Source: Byssovorax sp. (lineage in GTDB: Bacteria; Myxococcota_A; Polyangia; Polyangiales; Polyangiaceae). Taken from it: a DNA stretch of 64,000 bases. How positions within the stretch are numbered: the stretch's first letter is position 1; every line of letters starts with the position of its first letter. The notes under the pieces were generated by a model, which searched no databases, was not told the DNA's origin, and saw only the letters and a list, made by a program, of their open reading frames with translations. A program made the position numbers and the translations under genes. Below, piece by piece: positions 12,087 through 64,000 of this stretch. Where the stretch lies: assembly GCA_025362495.1 (NCBI GenBank), contig JANYGI010000062.1, forward strand, positions 1 to 64,000, written 5' to 3'.

Positions 12087-12707
12087 AGGAGGCCGCGGCC
12101 GGAGGGACTCACTCCACTTCACGGGCCCCGAGCCGCGGCGAGCACGCCGAGCGCCAGCCGGTCCACGAGAAGTATGGATTCGAGCCCGCGCGAGGCCCCT
12201 GGCTACCCTCTGGAGGTGTAGATCCAGCGGGCCAGCTGGACAGATCGACTCCTTGGTGGTGTAGATAAAGCCAACGCCGTGGCTCGATCTACCCCCATGA
12301 GGTGTAGATTCAGCGGCCCAGCTGGCTCGATCTGCCCTTTGATAGTGTAGATCTACCGAACCGACAGGCTCGATCTACCCGTTCGTGGTATAGATCCAGC
12401 GAGCTAGCTGGCTCTATCTACCGCCATGAGGTGTAGATCCAGCGAGCCGGCTGGCTCTATCTACCCCTTGGTGGTGTAGATGGAGCGGACCAGGAGGCTC
12501 CATGTGCGCCTCGGTGATGTAGATCAACCTCGCCGGGACGATCCGAAGGACGCGGCCGATCCCATCGAGTGCGGCAGATGACGGACACCGCGTCCGCGCC
12601 CGATGCCGGACCCGATGACCGCCTCCCCCCAGGCCCGCGCGGCCATCACGTCGCCCCGCTCCCGGGTGGTTCGGCGTCCGCCCCGCGCGTGCTACATCCC
12701 GCGCTCC
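12087..12707. other. Intergenic region dominated by a 43-bp repeat array
   Basis: This is a 621-bp gap between the lipoprotein gene and mfd. Bases 12087-12214 contain nothing recognised beyond a short GC palindrome. 12215 to about 12550 is a tandem array described separately. 12551-12707 should hold the mfd promoter, but no consensus promoter is visible. Confidence 0.6.
12215..12550. repeat. 43-bp tandem array with a near-palindromic core
   Basis: Seven units of exactly 43 bp start at 12215, 12258, 12301, 12344, 12387, 12430 and 12473, with a partial eighth from 12516. Most open with GGTGTAGATC and carry GATCTAC about 20 bases later, so each unit has a 32-base near-palindrome (GTAGAT ... ATCTAC arms, inner AGC/GCT). 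Several differences between units preserve pairing: the centre is AGCT|AGCT in unit 5 and AGCC|GGCT in unit 6, unit 7 gains a GG/CC pair next to AGC/GCT, and unit 2 extends the pairing to AGCCA/TGGCT. There is no unique spacer, so it is not CRISPR. No coding frame is apparent. Confidence 0.9.
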
Positions 12708-61318: not shown

Positions 61319-62569
61319 TCAGTCGGAGGCGCCCTCCGCATTCATGGCGGACAGCGGCAGGGCGGCGCGTGGGGACGGCAGGGAGAGGGAGATCAGGGCG
61401 GTGGTCAGGGCGAATGCGAAGGATGCCCACAGGCATCCTGGGAGCCCGGCGGCCTGGTAGACGAGGCCCGAGAGGAGCGTGCCGGCGAGCCGGCCGGCGG
61501 CGTTGGCCATGTAATAGAAGCCCACGTCGAGGGCGACCCGGTCGCCGTCGGAGTAGGCGAGCACCAGATACGAGTGCACCGACGAGTTGAGCGCGAACAC
61601 CACCCCGAAGAGGCCGAGTCCGCCGAGGACGACGACCTCTCGCGGATAACCCAGGGAGAGCGCCAGCGGCACGAGGCCCATGACCGCGGCGAGGCCGAAC
61701 GCCAGCGCCTGCGCCACGCCGGCCCGGGGCGCGCGACCGCCGGCGAAGCGGGCGAGGATCGCGGGCGCTACCGACTGGATGACTCCATAGCCCATCACCC
61801 AGAGGGCGAGCGAGCTTCCCACGCGCGTGAAGCTCCAGCCGAGCGCCGTGGCGAGGAACACCGGTACGCCGACCACGAACCAGATGTCGCGGGCGCCGAA
61901 GAGGAAGAATCGGGCCGCCGAGAGCCGGTTGATCGCCGGGTCCTTGGCGAAGAGCATCGCCAGCTTGTTCTTCGTCTTCGCCTTGCCGAGCTCGCGCGGC
62001 AGGCTGACGGTGGAGCCGAGCAGGATCGCGAGCAGCGCGCTGGCCATCGACCAGAGCGAGAGCTTGAATCCCAGCCAAGAGAGGAGCAGGCCTCCGAGGA
62101 AGAATCCCGCGCCTTTCAGGGCGTTCTTGGAGCCGGTGAGGATCGCCACCCACTTGAAGAGCGAGGACTCCGCGCCGACGGGCACGAGCGTCTTGATCGC
62201 GCTCTTCGCGCTCATCTTGGTGAGATCCTTGGCAATCCCGGAGAGGGCCTGAGCGGCCATGACGTAGGCCACCGAGCTCGCTCGCGGCCAGGTGGGCGCG
62301 ACGAACGAGAGCATTCCGAGGGCCCCGATCTGGAGGGCGAGCCCGCCGAGCAGCGTCGCGCGCAGGCCCATCCGCGCCGCGAGGAGCCCGCCGAAGAGGT
62401 TGGTCACGACGCCGAACAGCTCGTAGAAGAGGAACAGGAACGCGAGCTCCACCGGCCCGTAGCCGAGCGCGTGGAAGTGCAGGAGAACCAGCATGCGCAG
62501 CGCGCCGTCGGTGAGCGTGAACGCCCAGTACGCGGCCGTGACGAGGGCGTAGCTGCGGAGCGCGCGCAT
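61319..62569 (-). CDS. arsJ: Organoarsenical efflux MFS transporter ArsJ
   Basis: The 416-residue transporter starts at ATG 62569 (MRALRSYALV). About 12 helices follow, with the ArsJ-type N-terminus YWAFTLTDGALRMLVLLHFH and AKDLTKMSAKSAIKTLVP in the middle loop. ArsJ exports 1-arseno-3-phosphoglycerate made when GAPDH uses arsenate, and its gene normally follows a gapdh gene. Here the region upstream holds an arsM-gapdh scar and a truncated arsR, so the enzyme partner is lost. The ArsJ frame itself looks intact. Confidence 0.9.
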   Translation of the reverse strand: MRALRSYALVTAAYWAFTLTDGALRMLVLLHFHALGYGPVELAFLFLFYELFGVVTNLFGGLLAARMGLRATLLGGLALQIGALGMLSFVAPTWPRASSVAYVMAAQALSGIAKDLTKMSAKSAIKTLVPVGAESSLFKWVAILTGSKNALKGAGFFLGGLLLSWLGFKLSLWSMASALLAILLGSTVSLPRELGKAKTKNKLAMLFAKDPAINRLSAARFFLFGARDIWFVVGVPVFLATALGWSFTRVGSSLALWVMGYGVIQSVAPAILARFAGGRAPRAGVAQALAFGLAAVMGLVPLALSLGYPREVVVLGGLGLFGVVFALNSSVHSYLVLAYSDGDRVALDVGFYYMANAAGRLAGTLLSGLVYQAAGLPGCLWASFAFALTTALISLSLPSPRAALPLSAMNAEGASD

Positions 62570-62573
62570 GGCC

Positions 62574-62811
62574 TCAGGCGAGGCCCCGAGCGACCTTGCG
62601 CCCGGAGCTCGACCATCCGGTTCACGTAGCCAATCTCGCAAGAGTAGAGATCACGGGTGATCGGATCCGTACCGCCGCCGAGGGCTTCACCCTTCGAGGG
62701 GCTCGGCGTTGCCGCCGACCCGCAGCAAGAGGTCTTTCCTCCGCTGACCGCCGCCTTGACGGCCTGACCATACCGCGCCTGTACAACCTCACGAATGCTC
62801 TCGTTCGCCAC
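62574..62811 (-). pseudogene. Fused scar: arsM 5' end joined to arsenate-linked gapdh 3' end
   Basis: GTG 62811 follows an AGGAG site. The first ~55 residues (ESIREVVQARYGQAV, the SCCG motif, then DPITRDLYS) match the start of arsenite methyltransferase ArsM. At about 62635-62645 it switches to GYVNRMVEL, the C-terminal end of GAPDH (WGYxNRMVEL). A one-base frameshift after VEL then breaks the tail: in the shifted frame it ends RKVARGLA-stop, two codons before arsJ. This is best explained by a deletion removing the rest of arsM and almost all of gapdh, followed by decay. Confidence 0.78.
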
Positions 62812-62858: not shown

Positions 62859-63101
62859 TCAGCCACCCGCGAGCTTCTGGCACTCGGCGAGCCGGGCGAG
62901 GGTGCCTTTGTCGATCGCGTAGTACACCCACGTTCCGCGGCGCTCTCCCGTGACCAGCCCGGCCTCGCGGAGGATCTTCAGGTGATGCGAAATGGTGGGC
63001 TGCGAGAGGTCGAAATGGCTCTCGATGTCACACGCGCAGAGCTCCGACCCGGCGGCGGCGAGCAAACCCATCATCTCGAGCCGCGTCCCGTCGCGCGACA
63101 C
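62859..63101 (-). CDS. arsR: ArsR-family repressor, N-terminus replaced by repeat
   Basis: This 80-residue frame starts at GTG 63101. It has the arsenic-binding motif ELCACDI (Cys-x-Cys-Asp, as in ArsR) and the recognition helix LSQPTISHHLKILREAGLV, then GERRGTWVYYAI. A normal ArsR has ~20 more N-terminal residues before the (A/S)DPTRLEM helix. Here DGTRLEMM follows VSR, and the GTG itself lies in the first unit of a 43-bp tandem array. The array may have displaced the true start and promoter. Confidence 0.75.
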   Translation of the reverse strand: MSRDGTRLEMMGLLAAAGSELCACDIESHFDLSQPTISHHLKILREAGLVTGERRGTWVYYAIDKGTLARLAECQKLAGG

Positions 63102-63291
63102 CTCGAAACCCCTCCCGGCGATCGGTACCCACCCGCCGGGACACCTCGAAACCCCTCCCGACCACGGCTACCCACGCATCGGGAGACGTTAGAACCCCTC
63201 CGGGCGGTCGGCACCTACCCGCCGGGCGACCTTGAAACCCCTCCCGGCGCTCGGTCCCCTTCGCCGGGAGACGTCAAAACCCTCCCGCCGC
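63098..63291. repeat. ~43-bp tandem array between arsR and the last gene
   Basis: Four to five units of ~43 bp share ACACCTCGAAACCCCTCCCG and end with a CCGCCGGG-like stretch. Three units keep an inverted repeat around the centre: TCCCGGCG/CGCCGGGA in the first and fourth, TCCCGA/TCGGGA in the second, where both arms change. The array fills exactly the space between the arsR start and the stop of the next gene. Confidence 0.85.
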
Positions 63292-64000
63292 TTACTTGCC
63301 GCCGCCCGACACGCCGCCGTCGCCGGTGGGCGCCGGCGTGGGGTCCTTGGCCTTCTTCGGACGTCCGCCGCCGGAGCTGGCATAGAGTGACGGGAAATTC
63401 TCCTCCGGCTGTTCGTTCCGATAAAGGAACCGCCCGGCCGACTGCACCTCTGCATACGTGTTGCGGAGGAGCGTCCAGGCGCGCGTCATCGCCGCGACGC
63501 ACCGCTGCTCCTCGGCGCTCTGCGCGTTGCCCAGCTCGGCGAGGATCTCCTGGGCGTGCAGGCGCGCGTCTGCCGCGTCGGTGTCGCGGTAGTTGACCGG
63601 ATCCTTCTCGACCTTATCCTTCTGGTCCTCGTAAATTTTCGCGAGGCGGAGGAGATCGGAGGCCGTGTCGCGGTAGCCGGTGCCGGCGCGGATCGAGGCG
63701 ACCTCCTTGGAGAGCGTCGCGTGACGCTTGAAGAGGTACTCTGTGCACTCCAGCATGCGCTCCTTCACCTGGGTTGCCTTGTCGACGAGGGCGACTGGCA
63801 GCTTGGCCTCCGTGGTCTGCGCGCGGGCCGATTGCAGCTCGACATACGCGTGCGAGACGGTGAGCGCGATCGTGCCGAGATCGCCGAGGTGCGCGGGATC
63901 GAACGTTCTGGGGTGCAAGAGCGCAAAGCGGGCGCGGGGCTCGGGCTCGGCGAGGAAGCGGGAGACGGAGAGGGCGAGGATCGCGGCGGCCTGGCCGTCG
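63292..64000 (-). CDS. Unrecognised protein, 5' end beyond the window
   Basis: The minus-strand frame is open from its TAA (63294-63292) to the right edge with no stop, so it extends beyond 64000. The visible part is helical and charged (TIALTVSHAYVELQSARAQT, KATQVKERMLECTEYLFKRH, EVASIRAGTGYRDTASDLLR) and ends in a Gly/Lys/Pro tail. No family was recognised. It is not a phage or transposon protein by sight. A TTG/other start near 63918 is not needed because upstream codons continue the frame. Confidence 0.5.
   Translation of the reverse strand, partial: DGQAAAILALSVSRFLAEPEPRARFALLHPRTFDPAHLGDLGTIALTVSHAYVELQSARAQTTEAKLPVALVDKATQVKERMLECTEYLFKRHATLSKEVASIRAGTGYRDTASDLLRLAKIYEDQKDKVEKDPVNYRDTDAADARLHAQEILAELGNAQSAEEQRCVAAMTRAWTLLRNTYAEVQSAGRFLYRNEQPEENFPSLYASSGGGRPKKAKDPTPAPTGDGGVSGGGK

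Follow-up and report, generated by a model that had tools for sequence, protein, structure and literature searches.

Scarred arsM and gapdh remnants before an intact arsJ gene in a Byssovorax draft genome

Overview

In the arsenic-resistance locus of a Byssovorax sp. draft genome, the start of arsM is joined to the end of an ArsJ-type gapdh, so that neither enzyme can be made, and arsJ directly downstream is intact. We consider the locus to be, probably, a decaying arsenic-resistance island in which one illegitimate deletion in an ancestral operon left arsJ intact. Since arsR is damaged too, the lesions point to decay of the island rather than to the clean loss of one partner. The window (the whole 64,000-nucleotide stretch analysed) opens contig C89 (71,234 b) and covers its first 64 kb; the contig belongs to a 10.8 Mb draft genome of 240 contigs that is 96.56% complete. 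All parts of the ars locus lie on the minus strand and read, 5' to 3', as an unrelated gene, a 43-base array, a shortened arsR, the arsM start, the gapdh end and arsJ.

The arsM-gapdh scar

The arsM remnant (62641..62811, minus strand) consists of a GTG start at 62811, preceded by AGGAGA, and the first 57 codons or so (62811-62641), and its product is VANESIREVVQARYGQ...CCGS...TDPITRDLYS. It matched residues 1-57 of a full ArsM from the same family (genome G066, locus L119; E 1.0e-14, 63% identity), and the complete ArsM of G066 begins with this best match. The match to profile NF008823 was weak (positions 3-39, E 0.0019); the remnant stops at residue 57 and the SAM-binding methyltransferase domain is absent. 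Of the 317 genomes in the class, 15 gave matches to the stub (own genome counted), those in G053 and G159 falling in reading frames that do not resemble ArsM.

The arsM stub is followed by the last ∼20 codons of gapdh and their stop (62574..62638, minus strand), identified by DNA alignment to the gapdh of G117 and others. The remnant encodes EIGYVNRMVEL and then, after a one-base slip near 62605, RKVARGLA, with a TGA at 62576-62574; four bases separate this stop from the arsJ start at 62569. In G117 the gapdh likewise ends shortly before arsJ, and the other relatives compared are similar. The best local DNA score of the remnant was 68 (compared with the GAPDH C-terminus at 57 locus ids, several of them the same place twice), versus a best of 37 among ∼2000 random stretches of the window, from which a few at the place itself were skipped.

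A four-base CGAG at the join (62635..62638, minus strand) was compared with eight relatives on each side; it fits the gapdh side in 8/8 and is present at the matching arsM place in four of the eight arsM genes (L119, L120, L122, L124). The open frame from the arsM start (62404..62811, minus strand) follows the gapdh frame for ∼11 codons, slips, and runs on out of frame to 62404 within arsJ. A functional ArsM-GAPDH fusion was ruled out, as the common frame is ∼11 codons long and neither catalytic part is left. A preliminary description of the window had placed a frameshifted fusion of the arsM start and gapdh end at 62574-62811, before an intact ArsJ gene; its coordinates were exact and the fusion was borne out, both pieces matching far above chance.

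arsJ and the remaining arsenic genes

The arsJ gene (61319..62569, minus strand; 416 aa) is indeed full-length, with its conserved columns unchanged. Its product belongs to NF033734, which it matched with 557.1 bits (cut-off 400) over profile positions 1-392 of 392. It departs from the consensus at 0 of 127 conserved columns, the mean over the 107 rows of the alignment being 1.76 (conserved, ≥93%; window included, some rows representing one locus twice). To judge by the alignment, ArsJ is free of visible decay, a state that does not by itself prove selection since the scar arose; decay may simply not have reached arsJ so far.

Searches of the 96.6%-complete draft did not recover the rest of arsM or of gapdh, which favours genuine loss over a misjoin. 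The idea that a full ArsM or ArsJ-type GAPDH is encoded at another place was likewise rejected, as neither was found in this assembly. A full ArsM query recovered the stub and twelve weak matches (≤45 bits) that lack the N-terminus or are partial only; weak ArsM profile matches elsewhere start near family residue 70, the best scoring 62 against a 263-bit cut-off. An ArsJ-type GAPDH query recovered a single GAPDH, 46% identical, adjoining a gene that we take by eye to be pgk-like. Acr3 was ruled out as a replacement exporter, none having been found in the genome.

The ArsJ-GAPDH efflux system is recognised by a dedicated ArsJ-type GAPDH with an intact catalytic domain, and of this enzyme the genome has the 3' end only. 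The earlier statement that the locus has lost its partner enzyme thus stands for the dedicated GAPDH, which the locus no longer has and which searches of the rest of the assembly did not recover, but not for GAPDH in general, as one is still encoded in the cell.

Truncation of arsR and the adjoining array

The preliminary description missed a further lesion. The arsR gene (62859..63101, minus strand) has lost ∼40 N-terminal codons, in whose place stands a 43-base tandem array of 4.4 copies (63100..63287, no strand) that reaches arsR. Over the shared part the product is 78% identical to the ArsR of L119, and it matched NF033788 with 86 bits against a cut-off of 55 (profile positions 10-76 of 77); the winged helix-turn-helix and the metal-binding CxC (ELCACD) are retained. 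The arsR-arsM spacer also resembles that of L119 by eye.

Directly upstream of the array lies an unrelated multicopy gene on the same strand (63292..63999 in the window, its 3' part; whole gene 64131-63292 on the contig), and the array starts at the fifth base past its stop. The next-closest copies of this gene, on contigs C73, C219 and C18 (81, 65 and 38% identical, respectively), also carry arrays of 42-43-base units at their 3' ends. These arrays differ in sequence, and their starts range from just ahead of the stop (C219, by some rows) to 25 bases past it; no array was found at the 3' end of the more distant copies on C166 and C170. Given the arrays on C73, C219 and C18, the array more probably belongs to the neighbouring gene and abuts a broken arsR, and we judged it unlikely to be part of the ars locus. 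Hairpin predictions for the array units were mixed (z +1.4 to -3.6; 17 units, shuffles keeping base counts only). The place where the arsR start and promoter would be expected is now occupied by the array and the neighbouring gene; if arsJ is transcribed, read-through from this same-strand gene would be the likeliest route to its expression.

The upstream gene (63292-64131) encodes a ∼280-aa protein, for which 11 matches were counted within this genome and 54 of the family's 106 genomes gave a match; searches of Pfam, NCBIfam, PADLOC and PHROGs gave weak matches only and no convincing family. Genes of this kind often adjoin tandem arrays with a period of 41-43 b whose sequence differs per locus. 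Within this genome, arrays stand at the 3' end of the four closest copies and not of those on C166 or C170. Arrays within 900 b upstream or 700 b downstream of the gene were seen at 17 of 33 distinct loci, five further loci having been dropped (no blast match). TRF detected arrays with periods of 40-44 in 21/38 such loci (132 kb) compared with five arrays in 463 kb of this genome, a rough comparison since the 38 loci come from many genomes; four of the five genome arrays lie in open frames. A second 43-base array in the window (12213-12500, 6.7 copies, in no open frame) lies upstream of a gene whose sequence we presume to be mfd-like; no member of the ∼280-aa family adjoins this array.

GAPDH and gene order at ArsJ loci of relatives

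After 26 ids were dropped as duplicate places, 104 ArsJ loci were left, a few of which may still be one genome from two collections. GAPDH was sought upstream of arsJ by tblastn (E 1e-8) in the 98 loci that could be judged, six having too little upstream sequence. A full GAPDH was present in 92 of these 98 (91 within 1.5 kb, one further away), and its absence here is therefore probably derived. The remaining loci had a partial GAPDH (one locus, in G078) or none (the window, G097, G118, L025 and L050).

These exceptions differ in kind. In G078, a 77%-complete draft of the same family (L113 2437-2849, G078:C358), gapdh lacks residues ∼21-211 and changes frame before an intact arsJ. G097 carries an ArsJ-type GAPDH, 74% identical, on another contig. 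In G118 (L117 3909-4700, G118:C133) arsJ itself lacks its middle part (residues ∼108-250), and an ArsJ-type GAPDH was not found in its 64%-complete draft. L025 (4564-6230) and L050 (450-2514), from an Acidobacteria and a Planctomycetota draft, have arsR followed by arsJ with no GAPDH between them, and each genome has one GAPDH elsewhere, which shares 51% and 43% identity, respectively, with the ArsJ type. If these drafts are right, the dedicated GAPDH was lost or never gained more than once, with ArsJ kept.

An intact arsR-arsM-gapdh-arsJ order, for which the preliminary description had looked to related strains, was seen in none of the loci compared; the comparison used two ArsM queries, and many of the loci had only 1.5 kb of flank. 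Closest to this order was L041, with arsM followed by arsC-gapdh-arsJ on one strand. For the most part arsR-arsM and gapdh-arsJ lie apart in the relatives examined, and G158 has both on different contigs. The arsR-arsM pairs of the same family or class (L119, L121, L123) share the ArsM N-terminus with the present locus, and L119 shares the ArsR core and a similar spacer as well; unlike in these pairs, arsM is here cut after 57 codons and the arsR start is gone.

ArsJ and its partner enzyme in characterised systems

As in the gapdh-arsJ pair of Pseudomonas aeruginosa DK2 (PMC6205960, PMC5930303), the present locus has an ArsJ equivalog with gapdh sequence directly upstream; however, all that is left of gapdh here is the final ∼20 codons, which are out of frame. 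The Vibrio cholerae var operon (arsR-varG-varH-arsJ, PMC9601151) likewise has arsR, GAPDH and ArsJ on one strand, whereas here the dedicated GAPDH is destroyed, arsR is truncated and no gene lies between the gapdh remnant and arsJ.

The claim that ArsJ needs GAPDH-made arseno-phosphoglycerate was not supported in that form. According to the V. cholerae study, an arsJ mutant had a stronger growth defect under arsenate than a varG (GAPDH) mutant, and its authors conclude that ArsJ exports free arsenate (PMC9601151). In view of that report, a need for the dedicated enzyme is one of two published views. The same study describes the glycolytic Gap of V. cholerae as active on arsenate in vitro, although likely insufficient to replace VarG, and mentions VarG-minus species (PMC9601151). 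An mfs2-gapdh pair of Halomonas GFAJ-1 conferred resistance in Escherichia coli AW3110 (PMC5930303). The ArsJ studied here could act on free arsenate or on what the remaining GAPDH produces.

Origin of the locus

We favour a single illegitimate deletion, perhaps at the four-base match, in an operon that would have had arsM upstream of gapdh-arsJ. The matches of both remnants are highly significant and lie in the correct orientation, and the G078 gapdh provides a second lesion before an intact arsJ. Counting against deletion and decay, no relative has the presumed ancestral order (L041 being the nearest), CGAG is at the arsM place in just four of eight genes, the locus was read from the assembly of a single strain, and the V. 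cholerae Gap was judged likely insufficient to replace the dedicated enzyme by the authors of that study (PMC9601151).

The usual separation of arsR-arsM from gapdh-arsJ in relatives, together with their placement on different contigs in G158, would fit a possible though unlikely alternative, in which two separate ars loci were merged by rearrangement, leaving a translocation or inversion breakpoint at the join. Yet the assembly yielded neither of the reciprocal halves, so that material would have been lost even under a rearrangement, and in L041 arsM does lie upstream of arsC-gapdh-arsJ.

We also entertain, tentatively, that the loss of gapdh was tolerated or favoured and that ArsJ was kept by selection for the export of free arsenate. 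ArsJ is unchanged at 127/127 conserved columns and is the sole intact gene among the arsenic genes sought, there being no Acr3 and no full ArsM; L025 and L050 pair ArsJ with one divergent GAPDH each; and V. cholerae ArsJ was reported as a free-arsenate exporter (PMC9601151). However, the damage extends to arsR, ArsJ would look just as unchanged after a recent event, and the genes sought in the genome did not include ArsB, ArsC or ArsP. That the repeated loss of GAPDH with ArsJ kept (in this genome, independently in G078, and in L025 and L050) means that ArsJ works alone as a free-arsenate exporter is a broader claim, which we doubt.

A chimeric contig is very unlikely. In its favour, the draft has 240 contigs and was judged from assembled sequence, and the G078 draft, with the other lesion, is 77% complete. 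Against it, a misjoin should leave the other arsM and gapdh halves elsewhere and none were found, the match at the join is just ∼4 bases, and a frame slip ∼30 bases away from the join is what a decayed gene would show.

Implications for arsenate export

If the favoured reading of island decay holds and arsJ is transcribed, the exported compound would be either free arsenate or 1-arseno-3-phosphoglycerate supplied by the GAPDH that the cell still has; export would be weaker than with both partners present and would lack the usual regulation by arsenic. Which of these two compounds is the substrate of ArsJ is disputed, and a genome with a GAPDH scar and a full ArsJ offers a natural test case; if ArsJ does act alone, such loci would separate the two published models. 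Apart from this value as a test of mechanism, the locus would be a case of ordinary operon decay.
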